Positions 3,768 through 62,060 of a stretch of DNA of 64,000 bases are shown in pieces. The notes under the pieces are model-generated. The model was not told the DNA's origin. It saw only the letters and a program-made list of their open reading frames with translations, and searched no databases. A program made the translations under genes and the position numbers. The first letter of the stretch is position 1. Every line of letters begins with the position of its first letter. The DNA is from a virus, in the IMG/VR virus record IMGVR_UViG_3300042507_006854, positions 62,001 to 126,000 of that record; one strand, 5' to 3'.

Positions 3768-4202
3768 TTATAAATACATTTGTTGTAAAGTCAATTTTAA
3801 ATATTCCTGAAGACGAAGAGTTTCTGCAAAATTTAATGCAATACTAATGCCACCTAATTTAATCAAATAACCAACATGCTTTTCTTCACGAATAAATGGC
3901 TCTACAAAAATAGGGGTTTTTCCAGCATGAACTGTTGACCATTTTTTTTCGCCATTAGATTGTAAAACTAAAAGAGTTTCAGCAATATCATTTTCACTAA
4001 GCTTAATTCTTTTATGTTTTTCAGGATTATTAACGTTTTCTTTAAAAGTTCCGTTTTTAGTTTCTTCGTTCCATCCCGCTTGACGGATCATATTTATATA
4101 AAAACCATTCTTTTTTTGATCTTCTTGGTCTTGAGTTAATCCAAAGGTAATCCAAGAGCCAGTTACGGATTTAGTTGGTTTACAAAAATCTAATTTTTTC
4201 AT
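3768..4202 (-). CDS. Putative ssDNA-binding protein (PC4/whirly-like)
   Basis: 144 aa. It has the pattern I associate with a family of small phage proteins resembling PC4/whirly ssDNA-binding folds: N-terminal KPTKSVTGS, then FYINMIRQAGWNEETKNGTFKEN, a KRIKLSENDIAETLLVLQSN segment, and a closing helix NFAETLRLQEYLKLTLQQMY. In that family the final helix supports dimerisation. The assignment is from memory of the pattern only. It lies 9 nt upstream of the GT4 gene on the same strand. Confidence 0.6.
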   Translation of the reverse strand: MKKLDFCKPTKSVTGSWITFGLTQDQEDQKKNGFYINMIRQAGWNEETKNGTFKENVNNPEKHKRIKLSENDIAETLLVLQSNGEKKWSTVHAGKTPIFVEPFIREEKHVGYLIKLGGISIALNFAETLRLQEYLKLTLQQMYL

Positions 4203-4217
4203 AAGTTATTATATGAT

Positions 4218-4601
4218 CTATCTGTTTGAGAATCTAAGAATAAAGTCTAATACTCTTAATATTAAAAAGATTAAACCAATATATAGAATATTACCCAAAA
4301 CCAAAGAAATTATTAAAGCAGTCCAAGTCGTTAAACATATAATACAACCAAACAGTTTTAGAAAAAAACTTATAATAAAATTATTATTTATTGATCTTTT
4401 AATATATAAGAACTCAATATAACTAGTAGCTTGCGTTTCGGTATCTGTAAAAAATTCTTCGATCAATAACCAATCATAAATCTTTTTAGGAAAGATAAAT
4501 TTTAAGGCTTTTGCATAATACGCAAAAAAATCTGAATAAAACCATAAATACATTAACCATGATCCGACACAACAGAGTAAAATTAAATATAAGCTTGACA
4601 T
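4218..4601 (-). CDS. Membrane protein of unknown function
   Basis: 127 aa with hydrophobic segments near residues 1-25 (YLILLCCVGSWLMYLWF) and about 75-115 (IISFFLKLFGCIICLTTWTALIISLVLGNILYIGLIFLIL), so two to three membrane passes with a basic C-terminus. No family recognised. It is the first gene of the leftward group and starts divergently from the sigma factor gene across a 156-nt gap. Confidence 0.55.
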   Translation of the reverse strand: MSSLYLILLCCVGSWLMYLWFYSDFFAYYAKALKFIFPKKIYDWLLIEEFFTDTETQATSYIEFLYIKRSINNNFIISFFLKLFGCIICLTTWTALIISLVLGNILYIGLIFLILRVLDFILRFSNR

Positions 4602-4722
4602 AAGTATAAAAAAAGTTAAAGTAAAGGAACATTTCTATTTCGAAACCTCACTTCGTTCGGCTTCGATTTGTTCGCTTTGCTCACAAAATTATATTTCTTT
4701 TTTTGAAAAAATCTAATATATC

Positions 4723-4751
4723 TTGACTTGTAATTCAAAATTTATTATCGT
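4723..4751 (+). promoter_or_regulatory. sigma70-like promoter of the sigma factor gene
   Basis: TTGACT at 4723-4728, 17-nt spacer, TATCGT at 4746-4751, then exactly 6 nt before the ATG at 4758. The predicted start of transcription coincides with the start codon, so the mRNA would be leaderless. Confidence 0.6.
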
Positions 4752-4757
4752 TATTTA

Positions 4758-5357
4758 ATGGTAAAAGATTTAAAAAAACATTCTGATAATCAGTTAATTA
4801 ATAAAGTTAAAAAAAATAATTGCAATGATAGTCTCAAAGAGCTTGTAGATCGTCATAGTGGAATGATTTTTAATATGGGGAAAAAATATTGCCCATCTTG
4901 TAATCTAGATTTAAATGATTTAAGTGGTAACAAATATTGGATTATATTTAATGCAATCCAATCTTATGATTCAGAAAAAGGGAGTAAATTTTCTACTTGG
5001 TTAGGTAATCAAATAAGATTCTTTTGTTTAAACCATAAAAATAAAAATACGAAACTTATACCAACAGAAAATGATTCTTTAGAATTTTTTCTTAATGACT
5101 TCTTAAAAAAAGAAAATACCTCAAATAAGAAAGAAGTTATAGACAAAATTATTGATTTATTTAATCAAATTTCAGATCCAAATACTAAAAATGCTATTTA
5201 CTATAGATATTTTTATAACAAAGAACGCATTTTAAATTATGCAGAAATTGCTGAAATCTTGAAAGTTACTCCTCAAACAGTTCTTAATTGGCATAATAAA
5301 TTTATTAGGCTTGCACAAAAAAAATTGACAAACAAATCATCTATTGATATTATATAA
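4758..5357 (+). CDS. Phage RNA polymerase sigma factor, sigma70 family
   Basis: 199 aa, small compared with host sigma factors. Region 2 is clear around residues 65-95 (FNAIQSYDSEKGSKFSTWLGNQIR), matching the YDPEKGxKFSTYA..WIR core that melts and recognises the -10. A region 4 helix-turn-helix follows near residues 150-180 (LNYAEIAEILKVTPQTVLNWHNKFI). There is no region 1.1 and region 3 is reduced, as in T4 gp55 and other phage late sigmas. It likely redirects host RNA polymerase to late promoters. The best candidate target is the GTGTAAT motif found before structural genes. The gene itself has a host-type promoter. Confidence 0.85.
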   Translation: MVKDLKKHSDNQLINKVKKNNCNDSLKELVDRHSGMIFNMGKKYCPSCNLDLNDLSGNKYWIIFNAIQSYDSEKGSKFSTWLGNQIRFFCLNHKNKNTKLIPTENDSLEFFLNDFLKKENTSNKKEVIDKIIDLFNQISDPNTKNAIYYRYFYNKERILNYAEIAEILKVTPQTVLNWHNKFIRLAQKKLTNKSSIDII

Positions 5358-5362
5358 AAATT

Positions 5363-5668
5363 ATGGATAACAATGATAAAACTAAACTCGAAGAAGCTGG
5401 TGCCTTTTGGATCAAGACTTCTAAAACTGGAAACCAATTTCTTACCGGAAAAGTAAAATCAAAGTCTGGGGAAGAAATTAGTGTTATGGTATTTAAGAAT
5501 AAATATAAAACTGAAGGGTCTAATCAACCTGATTACAGAATTTATTTTGATAACGGTCCTCAAAAAGTTAGCATTTCTACTACGAAAGCGGAAGAGGCGC
5601 CTAAAAAACAAAAAGCCCTTCCTAAAAAGGAAGAGTCTGCACCAAAAAACGAAGAAATTCCATTTTAA
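5363..5668 (+). CDS. DUF736-like protein with SSB-type acidic tail
   Basis: 101 aa. The N-terminal 65 residues (GAFWIKTSKTGNQFLTGKV ... VFKNKYKTEGSNQPDYRIYF) match the DUF736 pattern of small beta-rich proteins. A Lys/Glu/Pro-rich linker follows, ending in EEIPF, which closely copies the C-terminal tip (DDIPF) that bacterial SSB uses to recruit replication proteins. I infer it acts as the phage ssDNA-binding protein or mimics the SSB hub. It sits 5 nt after the sigma factor gene. Confidence 0.65.
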   Translation: MDNNDKTKLEEAGAFWIKTSKTGNQFLTGKVKSKSGEEISVMVFKNKYKTEGSNQPDYRIYFDNGPQKVSISTTKAEEAPKKQKALPKKEESAPKNEEIPF

Positions 5669-5671
5669 GCT

Positions 5672-6763
5672 GTGGCTAAATTAGCATTTAATTTACCTAT
5701 TAATTCAACCTCTTTGGGTCAAGTCTCTCTCTGTATTTTAAGAGAACTCTTTCAAAGAGGTCTGGACATTAATTTATTTCCCATTGGGGGCGTTGACATT
5801 TCAAGTCAAAATCAAGATCCAAAATTTTTTGAATGGATTCAAAAATCTATTAATGAAAGTCAAAAAAGTCATAATAGAAATACCCCAATTTTTAAATTAT
5901 GGCATTTAACTGGGAGTTTAGAAAGTTTTTCTCAAAAACAAGTTCTTTTAACTTTTTATGAGGTTGATTCTCCTACAACTACAGAAATTAATATAGTAAA
6001 AAATAATGCAAAAGTATTATTGTCAAGCAATTACGGAATTTCAATTTTTAAAAATTTTGATATAGAAAATGTTGATTTTCTTCCATTAGGGTTTGATAAT
6101 ATACATTTTCAAAAAGTTAATAATGATAAAAAGAAAGACGGTATTCATTTTGGTCTGTTTGGAAAGTTAGAGCCACAAAGAAAAAGACATTTAAAAACTC
6201 TTCAAGCTTGGGCTAAAAAATATGGTAATAAACACGGATACTTTTTAAACTGTGCTTTATTTAATCCATTTATGGATCCAAATATGCAGTCCCAAATTAT
6301 TGGACAAGCTTTAGGTAATCAAAAATATTGGAATATAAACTTTTTGGGCTATATGCAGTCTAATTCAATGTATAACGATTTATTAAATAATACTGATATT
6401 GTTCTTGCAATGAGCGGAGGAGAGGGGTGGGGGTTACCCGAATTTCAGTGTGTAGCAATGGGTAAACATTGTATTGGTTTAAACGCCCATGCATACAAAG
6501 AATGGATGACAGAAGAAAATTCTGTACTAATTAGTCCTGCAAATAAAATTCCAGTGTATGATAATTTCTTTTTTAAACAAGGTATGGACTTTAATCAAGG
6601 AAATATTTTCGATTGGAATGAAGAAGACTTTTTAGAAGGTCTAGACAAAGTTGTTGAAAAATTTAATAAAAACCCCGAGAACATTTCTGGGCTAAAATTA
6701 CAAGAAAAATTTTCTTATAAAAAAATGGTAGATAAAATTCTAGAAATATTAGAAAAAGTATGA
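5672..6763 (+). CDS. GT4-like glycosyltransferase (GT-B fold)
   Basis: 363 aa, GTG start 3 nt after the preceding stop. Domain order is typical of GT-B enzymes: N-terminal LAFNLPINSTSLGQVSLCILREL, then from about residue 160 HFGLFGKLEPQRKRH and AMSGGEGWGLPEFQCVAMGKH, in which the E-G-x-G-L-P-x-x-E motif binds the nucleotide sugar. Probably transfers a hexose to a host or virion glycan. It ends in ATGA, overlapping the start of the next small gene. Confidence 0.8.
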   Translation: MAKLAFNLPINSTSLGQVSLCILRELFQRGLDINLFPIGGVDISSQNQDPKFFEWIQKSINESQKSHNRNTPIFKLWHLTGSLESFSQKQVLLTFYEVDSPTTTEINIVKNNAKVLLSSNYGISIFKNFDIENVDFLPLGFDNIHFQKVNNDKKKDGIHFGLFGKLEPQRKRHLKTLQAWAKKYGNKHGYFLNCALFNPFMDPNMQSQIIGQALGNQKYWNINFLGYMQSNSMYNDLLNNTDIVLAMSGGEGWGLPEFQCVAMGKHCIGLNAHAYKEWMTEENSVLISPANKIPVYDNFFFKQGMDFNQGNIFDWNEEDFLEGLDKVVEKFNKNPENISGLKLQEKFSYKKMVDKILEILEKV

Positions 6764-7327: not shown

Positions 7328-9307
7328 ATGAGTACAGAAATTATTTCAGAAAAATTTGCAAACAAATACGTAAACAAACAACCGAATTGGGGTTTTAATG
7401 GTTTAGGGTATATTGTTTATAAAAGGACTTACGCTCGCCTTAAAGATGACGGCAAAACAGAGGAATGGCATGAAACTATTCGTCGTTGCATAAATGGTGC
7501 TCAAAAAATTGGTGCAAACTATACCCAAGAAGAAGCCGAGCAACTTTTTGATTTAATTTTTAATTTAAAATGTAATTTTGCAGGCCGTATGCTTTGGCAA
7601 CTTGGTACTCCAACAATTGATCGTTTTGGAGCGAACTCTCTTCTTAATTGTTGGAATGTTAGTATTAATAGTATTAAATCATTTCTGTTTCTTTTTGAAA
7701 ATCTAATGCTCGGTGGAGGGGTAGGGTTCTCTATTCGTCGTGAAGATATTCATGAATTGCCAAGAGTCAAAAAAGGGGTAAATATAATTCATAAGAATAC
7801 TAAAGACGCGGATTTTATTGTCTCCGATAGTAGAGAGGGGTGGATCCGTCTTTTAGAAAATGTCTTTAACGCATTTTATACGACAGGTAAATCTTTTAAT
7901 TATTCGACAATTCTTATTCGTGGCGCTGGAGAAAGAATCGGCGGGTTTGGTGGTATTGCAAGTGGTCCACAAATTCTTATTGATGGCATAGAAAAAATTA
8001 ATAAAATCTTTCAAACAAGAGAAGGTAAAAAACTTCGTTCTGTTGATGTTCTAGATATTTGTAATATTATAGGTGGAATTGTCGTTTCTGGAAATGTTCG
8101 TAGAAGCGCACAAATTGCGATTGGAGATCCAGACGATTATCTTTTCTTAAGAGCGAAAAATTGGTCTTTAGGAAATATCCCAAACTGGAGAGCTATGTCT
8201 AATAATACAATTTATGCAGATGATTTCTCTCATATTTCTAATGAGATATGGAGTAATGGTTATGTATTAGATTCTGAAACTGGTTTTGCAAAAGGTGAGC
8301 CATATGGATTTTTTAATCTTCCACTCTCACAAAAATATGGAAGACTTAAAGACGGGCCAATGAAAGATAGTAATCTTTATCCAACAGATGAAGATAATGT
8401 CGTTGGAACAAATCCTTGCGGTGAAATTAGTCTTGCTTCATATGAGTGTTGTAATCTTTCCGAATTGTATTTGAATAATATAACTTCTAAAGAAGAACTG
8501 ATTCTCTGTGCAAAGCTTTTATATAAAACACAAAAAGCTATTGCAGCATTACCTTTTATTCACGAAGAAACGAATAAAATTGTACATAAAAATATGCGCC
8601 TAGGTCTTGGCGTGACCGGAATTTGCCAATCTCTTAACAAAATTGATTGGCTTGATGCCTGTTATAAAGAGCTTCGTAAATTCGATAAAGAATGGAGTAA
8701 AGAACGTGGCTGGAATCGTAGTATTAAATTAACAACAGTTAAACCAAGTGGAACACTTAGTCTTTTGGCAGGGGCAACTCCAGGTGTTCATCCAGCGTAT
8801 TCTAAATATTATACTCGTAGAATTCGTATGGCAAGTAACGATCCTCTTGTAAGTTATTGTAGAGACCTAGGATATTATATAGAATATGTCGTAAATTTCG
8901 ATGGTTCTGAAAATCATGATACCGTGGTTGTAGAGTTTCCTTGCGAAACTCCAGACGGAGCATTATTTGCTGATGATATGGGTGTTATTAAACAGCTTGA
9001 TATGGTAAAAAAACTTCAAGAGGTTTGGTCAGATAACGCTGTTAGCGTTACAGCTTATTATAGCGAAGAAGAATTATCGGCCTTAAAACAATGGCTTTCA
9101 GACAATTATGAAAATGGGATTAAATCTGTAAGCTTCCTATTAAGACAAAAGCATGGGTTTAAACAGGCCCCATATGAAGAAATAACTAAAGAGCAATATG
9201 AGAATAAGAAATCTAAAGTAAAATCAATTATTAATATTAATCATAATATTGGAAATGAAGCTTTGGAGGGAATTGAATGTGAAGGCGGTGCTTGTCCAAT
9301 TAAATAA
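7328..9307 (+). CDS. nrdJ: Class II (B12-dependent) ribonucleotide reductase
   Basis: 659 aa. Monomeric adenosylcobalamin-dependent ribonucleoside-triphosphate reductase, which converts NTPs to dNTPs without oxygen or an R2 subunit. Active-site residues are visible: Cys108 in SLLNCWNV, N362/C364/E366 in NPCGE, and Cys374/375 in SYECCNLSEL. The C-terminus ends CEGGACPIK, the shuttle cysteine pair seen in Lactobacillus RTPR. Length is slightly below the usual ~700-740. It would supply dNTPs for replication together with the dCMP deaminase, ThyX and dNMP kinase in this window. The host must provide or import cobalamin. Confidence 0.93.
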   Translation: MSTEIISEKFANKYVNKQPNWGFNGLGYIVYKRTYARLKDDGKTEEWHETIRRCINGAQKIGANYTQEEAEQLFDLIFNLKCNFAGRMLWQLGTPTIDRFGANSLLNCWNVSINSIKSFLFLFENLMLGGGVGFSIRREDIHELPRVKKGVNIIHKNTKDADFIVSDSREGWIRLLENVFNAFYTTGKSFNYSTILIRGAGERIGGFGGIASGPQILIDGIEKINKIFQTREGKKLRSVDVLDICNIIGGIVVSGNVRRSAQIAIGDPDDYLFLRAKNWSLGNIPNWRAMSNNTIYADDFSHISNEIWSNGYVLDSETGFAKGEPYGFFNLPLSQKYGRLKDGPMKDSNLYPTDEDNVVGTNPCGEISLASYECCNLSELYLNNITSKEELILCAKLLYKTQKAIAALPFIHEETNKIVHKNMRLGLGVTGICQSLNKIDWLDACYKELRKFDKEWSKERGWNRSIKLTTVKPSGTLSLLAGATPGVHPAYSKYYTRRIRMASNDPLVSYCRDLGYYIEYVVNFDGSENHDTVVVEFPCETPDGALFADDMGVIKQLDMVKKLQEVWSDNAVSVTAYYSEEELSALKQWLSDNYENGIKSVSFLLRQKHGFKQAPYEEITKEQYENKKSKVKSIININHNIGNEALEGIECEGGACPIK

Positions 9308-9735
9308 TGAAAGATAAAGATATACATAAACATTTACGAGATTCAATGGATGAAACATTGGAAAAAAAGTTTATGCAAAATCTTCAATGGTCAATGTTAT
9401 TTTTCTGTTTTAATCAAATTGCGAACCATATAAATGAAGAAAATAATTTTAAAAAAAAATATGTTCATCAAGAATTTATAAAAACATGGAAAAAATTTGC
9501 TAATCAAAATATCTCAAGCGTAGATTTAAAAATTATTAATGATATTTTAAATTCTCCTAAAAATGTTTTTTACTCAGCGCTTCAAAATAATAACGAAATT
9601 AGCGAAAGCACCGAAATATATCAAGAAAAATATAATAATATATTAAATAAAATTGAAAAATTTTTTTTAAATACTTTAAATAATGAGAAAAATTTTGAAT
9701 CTCCAGAAGAAGACGACGATAATAAATATGCGTAA
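9307..9735 (+). CDS. Hypothetical protein, 142 aa
   Basis: Starts at the last base of the nrdJ stop and ends overlapping the gmd start (ATGCGTAA). Lys/Asn-rich, helical, with an acidic tail (ESPEEDDDNK). No family recognised. Confidence 0.6.
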   Translation: MKDKDIHKHLRDSMDETLEKKFMQNLQWSMLFFCFNQIANHINEENNFKKKYVHQEFIKTWKKFANQNISSVDLKIINDILNSPKNVFYSALQNNNEISESTEIYQEKYNNILNKIEKFFLNTLNNEKNFESPEEDDDNKYA

Positions 9736-10759
9736 AAAAGTTCTTATTACAGGCGTTACGGGCCAAGATGGTAGTTACATGGCAGATTTTCTACTAGAGA
9801 ATACTGATTATGAAATTTATGGAATGGTGAGAAGGGCTTCTACAAATAATTATCATAATATAAAACATTTATTAGATAACCCTAGATTTAAATTAATCAC
9901 TGGAGATTTAACAGACTCACAATCTATTGATAACATTGTTAGAGACGCGCAACCAGATTATTTTATAAATTTAGCTGCCCAAAGTTTTGTTGGAGCGTCT
10001 TGGCAAATACCCGAACAAACCTTTGATATAGATGCTGTTGGTGTTATTAGATGTTTAGAAGCCGTCAGAAAACACGCCCCAAATTGTAGATTTTATAACG
10101 CAGGATCTTCGGAAGAATTAGGAAACGTAGATTATAGTCCACAAGATGAAAAACACCCCTTAAAACCAAGAAGTCCTTACGGGGCAGCGAAAGCTGCTGC
10201 TAGACATATTGTAAAAGTTTATAGGGAAAGTTATAATCTTTTTGCAATTCAAGGGTTATTATACAATCATGAGAGCCCAAGGCGTGGAGAAGAATTTGTC
10301 ACAAGAAAAATTACAAAAGAAATTGCTAAGATTAAAAAAGCTTTAGATCATGGTTATGATTTTGAACCGCTAGAATTAGGCAATATTTATGCTAAAAGAG
10401 ATTGGAGCCATGCAAAAGATTTTGTTCGTGGCATTTGGATGATGTTAAATCAAGATACCCCTGTAGAATATTTATTATCTTCCGGAGAAACTCATACAGT
10501 AAAAGAATTTCTTGAAAAAGCCTTTGAACATGTAAGTATCAAAGGGGATTGGGTTGGGTCAGGAATAGAAGAAAAATTAATTTATAAAAATCAAATACTT
10601 GTACAGATTAATTCACAATTTTACAGACCAGCCGAAGTTGATTTATTGCTTGGAAATCCTACTCAAGCTGTAACAAAACTAGGGTGGAAACCAGAAATTT
10701 CTTTTGAAAATTTAGTTAAAGAAATGGTAGATTGGGATAATTTAAATCTGAATGTGTAA
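9728..10759 (+). CDS. gmd: GDP-mannose 4,6-dehydratase
   Basis: 343 aa from the ATG at 9728. A longer frame from 9683 exists, but it overlaps the previous gene by 53 nt and adds residues absent from the family. The NAD-binding motif GVTGQDG is at residues 8-14 and the SDR catalytic YGAAK near residue 150. MVRRAST and the RRGEEFVTRK segment are typical of Gmd. It converts GDP-mannose to GDP-4-keto-6-deoxymannose, precursor of GDP-fucose, rhamnose or perosamine. It belongs with the glycosyltransferases and epimerases of the window. Confidence 0.92.
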   Translation: MRKKVLITGVTGQDGSYMADFLLENTDYEIYGMVRRASTNNYHNIKHLLDNPRFKLITGDLTDSQSIDNIVRDAQPDYFINLAAQSFVGASWQIPEQTFDIDAVGVIRCLEAVRKHAPNCRFYNAGSSEELGNVDYSPQDEKHPLKPRSPYGAAKAAARHIVKVYRESYNLFAIQGLLYNHESPRRGEEFVTRKITKEIAKIKKALDHGYDFEPLELGNIYAKRDWSHAKDFVRGIWMMLNQDTPVEYLLSSGETHTVKEFLEKAFEHVSIKGDWVGSGIEEKLIYKNQILVQINSQFYRPAEVDLLLGNPTQAVTKLGWKPEISFENLVKEMVDWDNLNLNV

Positions 10760-10760
10760 T
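10754..10760 (+). promoter_or_regulatory. GTGTAAT late-type motif
   Basis: GTGTAAT with AATATTTATT before the ATG at 10771 (10-nt gap), resembling the late-gene motif. It overlaps the gmd stop, so it may be fortuitous. Confidence 0.3.
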
Positions 10761-10770
10761 AATATTTATT

Positions 10771-10977
10771 ATGGAAGAAACAGTTCAAATCATAACACCG
10801 GCAGACAAATTTAATCACTGTAAGCATCGTTCCCCAGAAGAAGAAAGTAGGGTAATTAAAAGATGCTCTTGTCAAGGTGGAGACTATGTTGACAAAGGTT
10901 ATTTTTGTCACAAAAGGCAAATTTTTAAACTAGGGGCACAAATTTGTGAAATCTGCGAACTTTTCGAGTCTAAATAA
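10771..10977 (+). CDS. Small cysteine-rich protein, likely zinc-binding
   Basis: 68 aa with seven Cys and several His: HCKHR, CSCQGG, GYFCHKRQ, CEICEL. The spacing suggests one or two zinc sites. Function unknown. The 3' end overlaps the next reading frame by 32 nt. Confidence 0.6.
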   Translation: MEETVQIITPADKFNHCKHRSPEEESRVIKRCSCQGGDYVDKGYFCHKRQIFKLGAQICEICELFESK

Positions 10978-42257: not shown

Positions 42258-42502
42258 CTTTATTCTTTCTATACAATTATCAACGTGTTATCGTGCGGGA
42301 GTTTACCCCGCACATCTCTACGTCACCGTAGAGTTCAGACTATATCTTGTTTACGCTTGCGCGTAAATCAGGGCGCTCGTGGACAGTTTATTGTTTTGTG
42401 CTACTCACTGTCTAGTCGTTGCACCTTCTACTTACTATTGCACTTCAGTAGCTTGGCTCAAGATTGTCTTCTTAAAAAGAGTTTCCTTGAATTCACCCCG
42501 AA
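42258..42502 (-). ncRNA. Group I intron C (IA-like) in a micro-ORF
   Basis: S element at 42333-42348, R-like GGTGCAACGACTAGA at 42411-42425, Q-like ACAATCTTGAGCCAAG, and the same P9/P9.1 hairpins as A and B, but peripheral sequence has diverged. 5' flank ATGACCT (42509-42503) with TTCGGGG gives the same P1 as intron B. Taking G42258 as the last intron base keeps the frame: MTSPAPRKARAPGNLFIG, stop six bases before the ATG of P3. The 3' site is less certain than in B. Confidence 0.82.
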
Positions 42503-42513
42503 AGGTCATATTT

Positions 42514-42528
42514 AAATTTTTAAAGAAC
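42514..42528 (-). promoter_or_regulatory. boxA-like motif before intron C
   Basis: Minus strand GTTCTTTAAAAATTT, 7 nt after the late-type GTGTAAT. Confidence 0.5.
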
Positions 42529-42535
42529 ATCCTTT

Positions 42536-42542
42536 ATTACAC
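42536..42542 (-). promoter_or_regulatory. GTGTAAT late-type motif before intron C
   Basis: Minus strand GTGTAATAAAGGAT leading into the boxA-like motif. Confidence 0.5.
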
Positions 42543-42559
42543 ATTTTTAAATAAAAACC

Positions 42560-42587
42560 TTGTTTTTTTTAAAAAAAACTTTATAAT
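42560..42587 (+). promoter_or_regulatory. sigma70-like promoter of the MoxR gene
   Basis: TTGTTT at 42560-42565, 16-nt spacer, TATAAT at 42582-42587, exactly 6 nt before the ATG at 42594. Confidence 0.65.
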
Positions 42588-50559: not shown

Positions 50560-50783
50560 TCTCATCATTGTGTTATCGTATAAGTGTTTATCTTATACAT
50601 CTTTGCGTCACCGCAAAGTTCAGACTATATCTTCTTTTCTTTTGAAAAGTTCGGGCGCTCTTGGGCTATTTTATTGTTGGGACTCAACAGCCTAGTCGTT
50701 ACACCTTCCATCCTATCTTTCCCAGATGGCTTGGCTCGGGATTGTCTTTTTATAAAGAGTTCCCCCGAATTCACCCGATAACG
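50560..50783 (-). ncRNA. Group I intron D (IA-like), diverged, ends approximate
   Basis: Minus strand shows GAATTCGGGGGAACTCT, Q-like ACAATCCCGAGCCAAG, R-like GGTGTAACGACTAGG at 50691-50705, S element AAGATATAGTCTGAAC at 50618-50633, and P9/P9.1 hairpins with compensatory changes (CTTTGCGGTGACGCAAAG instead of CTCTAC...GTAGAG). The covariation supports a maintained RNA fold. 5' flank ATGTCCG suggests a micro-ORF start. No endonuclease ORF. Confidence 0.83.
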
Positions 50784-50794
50784 GACATTTTTTT

Positions 50795-50808
50795 AAATTT
50801 TAAAGAAC
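50795..50808 (-). promoter_or_regulatory. boxA-like motif before intron D
   Basis: Minus strand GTTCTTTAAAATTT, preceded by GTGTAAA (50817-50823). Confidence 0.5.
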
Positions 50809-50867
50809 TATTTATTTTTACACAAAATAATATTGAATACCCCAAAAAAATTTATTATCATAATAAT

Positions 50868-60429: not shown

Positions 60430-60458
60430 TTGACAAAATAATAAAATAAGTGTATATA
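60430..60458 (+). promoter_or_regulatory. sigma70-like promoter of the large RNA
   Basis: TTGACA at 60430-60435, 17-nt spacer, TATATA at 60453-60458, then exactly 6 nt to GTTCTTTGAAAATTTT. Confidence 0.7.
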
Positions 60459-60464
60459 AAAATA

Positions 60465-60830
60465 GTTCTTTGAAAATTTTATTAGCGAACCGCTCACATT
60501 GAGCAGAGACGCTAATGAATGGTGGCGTGGCGATGTACAACCAATAAAATCGGGATCGCCTTTGATAAGGTATGCAACTCTACCTCCATATGTGCCAAGC
60601 TTATTACGCTTGGCGAATTCTAGAATCCATATGGTTCCACAGTGAATAAGACTATCGGAGTCGTTAGTTCAAAAAAGAAGAGCGTAGGTTCTGGGTTATC
60701 CAAGGCTAGATGGGCCAAAACTCTTGTATAAATGGTTAGGTGTTCTGAATTAAAGAGTAGTCTTTAATAATGCCAGCAGGGGCGCAACTCTGAACTGGTC
60801 CAAAGTGCGATAAAAACACCAAATTTTAAT
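60465..60830 (+). ncRNA. Large structured RNA of unknown class, directly upstream of tRNA-Met
   Basis: About 365 nt with no ORF. Starts with the boxA-like GTTCTTTGAAAATTTT. Helices seen by eye: ATTAGCG/CGCTAAT enclosing GCTC/GAGC; GGCGAT/ATCGCC; CCATATG/CATATGG enclosing GCCAAGC/GCTTGGC; ATTAAAGA-gtag-TCTTTAAT; and an outer GGTGTT/AACACC. It runs straight into a tRNA gene, the setting of the large phage-borne RNAs GOLLD and ROOL, but it is shorter and I recognise no motif of either. Not RNase P, 6S or group I. Likely real because of its own strong promoter and many nested stems. Confidence 0.7.
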
Positions 60831-60903
60831 TGCAGGATCGACAAGAGGTTAAGTCAGTAGGCTCATAACCTACCATGCGTGAGTTCAAATCTCACTCCTG
60901 CTA
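60831..60903 (+). tRNA. tRNA with CAT anticodon (Met, or Ile2)
   Basis: Acceptor TGCAGGA/TCCTGCT has a T1-T72 mismatch, an initiator-like feature. Anticodon loop CTCATAA, stem GTAGG/CCTAC; T arm GTGAG-TTCAAAT-CTCAC. The anticodon stem is not the GGG/CCC of initiators, so Met-elongator, initiator or lysidine-type Ile2 cannot be separated here. Confidence 0.85.
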
Positions 60904-60911
60904 TTTTTTAT

Positions 60912-61952: not shown

Positions 61953-62060
61953 ATGAAACATATTATTCTATCAATCCTAGTAGTTGTCGCTTTAACAGCC
62001 TGTGCTTCTAAAAAGCCTTGTTCGCCATGTGGCAAAACTACAGTTTGCGCTGTTAAATAA
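61953..62060 (+). CDS. Very small lipoprotein, 35 aa
   Basis: MKHIILSILVVVALTAC-type signal with lipobox LTAC and a 19-residue mature part with Cys-x-x-Cys pairs (PCSPCGK). Strong consensus promoter and a terminator after it. Size is like T5 Llp-type superinfection-exclusion lipoproteins or Rz1, but identity is unproven. Confidence 0.7.
   Translation: MKHIILSILVVVALTACASKKPCSPCGKTTVCAVK

Follow-up and report, generated by a model that had tools for sequence, protein, structure and literature searches.

A candidate new class of structured phage RNA with a boxA-like leader, an exchangeable 5′ domain and an optional tRNA neighbour

The subject of this report is a structured RNA gene in the window, the whole 64,000-nucleotide (nt) stretch that was analysed, which covers positions 62,001 to 126,000 of the 146,949-base IMG/VR virus record IMGVR_UViG_3300042507_006854. 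The gene lies at 60465-60820 on the plus strand, 356 nt from its leader to a terminal AACACC, occurs in one copy per phage record, and has a G+C content of 41% versus 32% for the window (96.5th percentile). Upstream of it a sigma-70 promoter can be read at 60430-60458 (+), with TTGACA at 60430-60435, a 17-nt spacer and TATATA at 60453-60458, in agreement with the near-consensus promoter proposed in a first-pass annotation of this DNA; the predicted RNA start is at about 60465, 7 nt past the −10 element. A boxA-like leader, GTTCTTTGAAAA (60465-60476, +), stands at the predicted RNA 5′ end, and 10 nt past the RNA follows a gene for tRNA-Met(CAU) (60830-60904, +), probably co-transcribed. This tRNA, as read at 60831-60903, looks initiator-like, with a U1·U72 mismatch, A11:U24 and the anticodon loop CUCAUAA, and the U·U mismatch is also found in the tRNA-Met of the related contigs L004-L006 and G021. 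The region was annotated as free of open reading frames (ORFs), which is borne out, since the longest ATG ORF spans 34 amino acids (aa) and no reading frame is conserved in the homologues.

All the helices listed in the first-pass annotation (7 base pairs (bp), 7+7 bp, an 8-bp hairpin with a 4-nt loop, and an outer GGTGTT/AACACC) are present within 60482-60820. The P1 hairpin (60482-60515, +) pairs TTAGCG with CGCTAA, with a further A-T pair outside and an inner GCTC/GAGC, and shows a compensatory G-C to A-U change between the window and L004-L006. Next comes a 5′ domain, here termed type A, with a predicted pseudoknot (60520-60560, +) that combines TGGT (60520)/ACCA (60540) with GGCGAT (60529)/ATCGCC (60555); its pairs are conserved, with one U-A to U-G change. 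The Ha hairpin, GGTA[UGCAACUC]UACC (60569-60584, +), is the invariant start of the common core and is identical across all homologues, most of which, it should be said, were found through the Ha motif itself. The two-part stem Hb (60586-60634, +) consists of CCATATG/CATATGG enclosing GCCAAGC/GCTTGGC at 60594-60614, and six of its pairs have changes on both sides in alignment A1, while the place of the Hd hairpin GACTA/TAGTT (60650-60669, +) is taken by other stems in other homologues. The 3′ domain (60739-60820, +) is closed by GGTGTT/AACACC, the inner five pairs of which are invariant in ten sequences. It contains the Hg hairpin ATTAAAGA/TCTTTAAT with a GTAG loop (60749-60768, +), where all eight pairs change on both sides among the ten sequences, and the Hh stem (60772-60799, +), which carries a conserved octaloop, GGCGCAAC, at 60781-60788. 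A loop pseudoknot (60783-60809, +) is predicted between CGCA at 60783-60786 and UGCG at 60806-60809, which are complementary in all sequences and invariant. A symmetric GCGC kissing loop within the octaloop was also considered and rejected, as L007 carries GACGCAAC, in which the palindrome is broken. The single-sequence fold of −99.9 kcal/mol is only modestly better than that of shuffles (z −2.35), so the proof of structure rests on the comparison of homologues.

These homologues were collected by two routes. Through the 88-aa ORF next to the gene, three contigs (L004-L006) were reached that have an RNA 83-87% identical at the same position, and repeated sub-motif scans of IMG/VR return the same set, in which 16 other contigs carry the RNA, identical copies counted. 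Ten full sequences are distinct, with lengths of 312-595 nt from the leader to AACACC, and one member is a fragment (L019). A covariance model, R1, built on the 3′ core, gives exactly one strong match per record holding the full core, with E-values from 1.6e-37 to 2.1e-16, the latter for the divergent L007. The IMG/VR scans demand exact short motifs, so that more divergent members could escape them. Pattern matches L022-L024, L026, L027 and L034-L039, mostly coding or GC-rich sequence, were discarded as chance. At the sensitivity used, the searches of cultured phages, plasmids and GTDB yielded no relatives: a distant BLASTN search of cultured phages with the window RNA matched nothing but the tRNA-Met and, by chance, an AT-rich piece of 32 nt, phage records gave no match to the L018 or L007 versions, plasmid records gave no match, and one GTDB scan gave only two chance matches in coding-like DNA (L046, L047).

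Covariation among the homologues is clear. In a model-guided alignment of the ten sequences, which favours the structure used to guide it, 91.6% of the pair cells are standard and 12 of the 29 pairs have changes on both sides; sliding the partners by 1-3 columns lowers the pairing to 31-48%, and the covariation score was reached by no shuffle. An independent MAFFT alignment of four close sequences gave 79 pairs that are 97.7% paired, 18 of them with both-side changes, as compared with 32-44% after sliding. In addition, stems that adjoin invariant motifs were tested at fixed positions, without any search for pairing. Here Hg was paired in 41 of 42 cases, with about 1e-4 of strand shuffles equally good, and Hh in 20 of 20. 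Hh is the most telling structural element, its stem being replaced under a constant loop, G[G/A]CGCAAC: the variants read CCAGCAGG/TCTG..CTGG, CCGTAAAA/TTTTACGG and CCATGTTA/TGATATGG or longer, and the stem sequence is wholly different in L005, L007 and the phages with the type B 5′ domain described below. The consensus that RNAalifold derived from a MAFFT alignment of the core was poor because the variable hairpins were misaligned, and the helices were anchored by their invariant flanks instead; a stem-swap count on hand-picked stems was not used as evidence, the fixed-position and alignment counts being used in its place. The CUCU of the Ha loop and stem can pair with an AGAG in all sequences. 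Because both are invariant, this pairing and the CGCA/UGCG pairing stand as predictions.

Common to the homologues is the 3′ core (AAGGTATGCAACTCTACC through AACACC), on which at least two unrelated forms of the 5′ domain are found, and a third in L007. Type A is present in the window and L004-L006, and in L010 without P1. Type B (L009, L011 and L018) has its own predicted pseudoknot, CAGAG/CTCTG with ACCAAT/ATTGGT, a part that is missing from L008, and in L007 about 325 nt of different sequence lie between leader and core. The Hb hairpin of L004, a type A member, is nearly the same as that of the type B member L009, which suggests recombination between the 5′ domain types.

No Rfam family matches the window RNA at the gathering thresholds, nor at E ≤ 10, and none matches the homologues. 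The impression that the RNA is neither GOLLD nor ROOL, two large phage RNAs with a similar setting, is upheld by their covariance models. GOLLD (RF02032) has no match at the RNA in the window, the homologues or the whole records, with only background scores elsewhere in the records, and ROOL (RF03087) has none in the window or homologue scans, nor at E ≤ 1 in ten records, a search that had no positive control. On these comparisons, the RNA very probably represents a new class of phage structured noncoding RNA, which we read as an addition to an established kind, the large phage RNAs, sharing the setting and architecture of GOLLD and ROOL and belonging to neither. Two outcomes that the first-pass annotation named as refuting its reading, a match to a known Rfam class and a lack of covariation among homologues, did not occur.

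The sigma-70 promoter is kept in L004-L006 in alignment A1 and comparable promoters precede the other homologues, and the transcribed leader after the −10 element carries a boxA-like sequence in all ten homologous loci, with the variants GTTCTTTAAAA in L010 and GATCTTTGAAAA in L007. The window form GTTCTTTGAAAA differs by one substitution from GTTCTTTAAAA, which is the boxA of the Legionella CRISPR; boxA elements have also been reported ahead of long noncoding RNAs (PMC7862264). Nine of the 16 stretches read have this leader before the transfer-messenger RNA (tmRNA) as well, and it recurs there in many related phages. In the window, the one-piece phage tmRNA (59498-59949, −; Rfam RF00023, E 2.1e-55) is the divergent neighbour of the RNA gene, and the promoters and leaders of the two are 82% identical over 51 nt, though the genes run divergently. 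The 11-mer TTCTTTGAAAA has three occurrences in the 147-kb record, two of them in these leaders. Leaders of the rRNA-type boxA (NusB/NusE), known also before CRISPR arrays, resemble those described here through the Legionella boxA; the difference is that the putative boxA described here lies where the transcripts of both a phage RNA and a phage tmRNA are predicted to start. From this likeness we infer a Nus-dependent antitermination of the phage RNA transcript.

The first-pass annotation described the RNA as fused to a tRNA transcript, but this does not hold as a defining property. The window RNA does end 10 nt before tRNA-Met, and those of L004-L006 likewise end about 10 nt before it; the RNA nevertheless has its own promoter, no tRNA follows it in L007 or the L010 group (L010, L014 and L017), and in four type B loci a second structured RNA stands between it and a tRNA-Asn. 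Conversely, the same tRNA-Met is present without the RNA in G021/L072. G021, the DNA polymerase of which is 84% identical to that of the window, has an intact empty site, with the same upstream ORF, about 25 nt and the same tRNA-Met. Relatives found through the DNA polymerase, most of them fragments, have no copy of it in the sequence that their contigs cover, and neither has the locus of a 58% relative of a protein of the L007 phage. The type B phages are without the DnaE-type polymerase of the window. Since the RNA is found in phages both with and without this polymerase, it moves between phage lineages, and since no protein-coding neighbour is common to all of its loci, it probably has no dedicated partner among the proteins encoded beside it. 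The gene is thus accessory among these related phages, with its place beside tRNAs, and tRNA fusion is not essential to it.

The explanation that we favour, with moderate confidence for the whole, is as follows. The RNA would be transcribed as its own gene from the sigma-70 promoter, and through its boxA-like leader host Nus factors would probably prevent termination on the untranslated transcript, as they do on rRNA; the RNA is presumably abundant in infected cells. In the window phage, transcription would run on into tRNA-Met, and RNase P would part the two. The mature RNA would consist of the exchangeable 5′ domain and the conserved, probably pseudoknotted 3′ core. Because the tRNA linkage is optional, it likely acts in trans, as an autonomous accessory factor during infection. 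GOLLD and ROOL form closed homo-oligomeric RNA-only cages, a 14-mer for GOLLD and an 8-mer for ROOL. By analogy with them, our best guess at the function would be a scaffold, RNA-only or bound to host proteins, for the translation or tRNA apparatus, but the RNA-only form of such a role is tentative and rather unlikely. Still less likely is the bolder proposal that this is a third cage- or ring-forming phage RNA class, brought to rRNA-like levels by its boxA leader, in which the core would self-assemble and the 5′ domain would set the cargo. If it were true, an exchange of 5′ domains would let phages trade one cargo (phage tRNAs or ribosomal particles, for instance) or host specificity for another. 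That GOLLD and ROOL have an unrelated counterpart with the same genomic habits suggests more than one evolutionary origin of such RNAs in phages, and the small size, natural presence/absence pairs, natural 5′-domain swaps and rRNA-style leader of the new class should make the role of large phage RNAs more testable. The class is also a ready candidate for Rfam.

Several observations weigh against this explanation. Neither the outer helix nor the two proposed loop pseudoknots vary, which leaves them unproven by covariation, and the distinct sequences number only ten, several of them close kin. One-mismatch copies of the leader motif show no overall enrichment, so that its position counts, not its number. 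Standing at the predicted extreme 5′ end, the boxA-like motif could alternatively be a conserved initially transcribed sequence.

The strongest functional rival is that of an abundant phage RNA serving as a decoy or in counter-defence, which would titrate a host RNA-binding factor, such as NusB/NusE via the boxA-like end, or an RNA-sensing defence protein. An arms race would fit the accessory status, the swappable 5′ domains and the sporadic presence, and the boxA-like sequence is indeed at the predicted extreme 5′ end; yet a simple decoy would be expected to have a less conserved core, and the tmRNA shares the leader, which suggests a role in transcription. We consider such a decoy improbable.

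Quite improbable, too, is a cis-acting leader of the tRNA-Met operon that controls tRNA transcription or processing, either T-box-like or antiterminated. The runs into tRNA-Met after about 10 nt in the window and L004-L006 agree with it, as does the resemblance of the leader motif to an antitermination site. A T-box is not matched in Rfam, however, and the RNA has no obligate downstream target, as the tRNA-less loci, the RNA that intervenes in type B and the solitary tRNA-Met of G021 make clear; moreover, a conserved fold of 312-595 nt far exceeds the needs of a leader.

That the RNA is a GOLLD or ROOL shortened or greatly diverged, beyond the reach of the Rfam models, can be regarded as very improbable. 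GOLLD has a conserved 3′ region and a variable 5′ region and lies near tRNAs, with its env-38 member beside a Met-tRNA (PMC12286853), and the RNA described here shares this plan as well as the setting in phages and tRNA islands. In contrast to GOLLD, which often exceeds 800 nt, it is shorter and has its own boxA-like leader, and neither model recognises it, permissive scans included. ROOL is likewise a phage RNA near tRNAs with predicted pseudoknots; it reaches 16S rRNA levels yet is non-essential where tested, and has no known protein partner (PMC12286853). Most members of the present class are much shorter than ROOL and have other conserved motifs. The large, ornate OLE RNA, which forms a homodimer, is comparable in kind, but has protein partners such as OapA (PMC12286853), whereas here neither a conserved neighbour protein nor an Rfam match was found.

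Finally, a mobile or guide-RNA part (a degenerate group I intron, a retron noncoding RNA, or the omegaRNA of an IscB/TnpB-like element) is scarcely credible: the phage does carry two group I introns, HNH-like proteins are encoded near some related loci and the presence of the RNA is sporadic, but there is no intron, HEARO or retron family match, no protein is conserved beside the RNA and therefore no reverse transcriptase or RNA-guided nuclease, and the RNA is single-copy with its own promoter and leader.

Those two group I introns lie at 42316-42565 and 50601-50839 (both −; Rfam E 3e-19 and 2e-17), close to minus-strand genes, and are the two places in the window where the catalytic-core model RF00028 matches, with no match at the RNA. 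The window phage encodes a DnaE-like DNA polymerase, and the closest cultured-phage polymerase is about 27% identical, so that the phage has no near cultured relative. Nine tRNA genes lie within the window and six further downstream in the record, and a sigma-factor-like phage gene (phrog_351) is found at 4758-5357 (+).

Among the related phages, the second structured RNA mentioned above, here called RNA-B, is about 200 nt long (about 5568-5768 (−) in L018; also in L008, L009, L011, L013, L021 and L025). In the type B phages it lies between the first RNA and tRNA-Asn and is 81-96% identical among them; it has no Rfam match in L008, L009 or L018. L009 alone has a further structured element between the two RNAs, an insert some 115 nt in length with GAGACG/CGTCTC closing it (about 10715-10835, −). 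In L005 the stretch from tRNA-Met to the 88-aa ORF contains one more gene, about 850 bases long (4100-4955), and L006 shows different inserts in the neighbourhood of its tmRNA and tRNA-Met (2500-2650 and 4110-4930). Beside its RNA, the L007 phage encodes a NodU-like carbamoyltransferase (8226-9677, −) and a BshB-like deacetylase (91-744, +). The type B phages encode a relative of adenylosuccinate synthetase (phrog_1211, with a weaker PurZ match; 8273-9310 (−) in L009), from which a modified-purine genome in these phages is possible.
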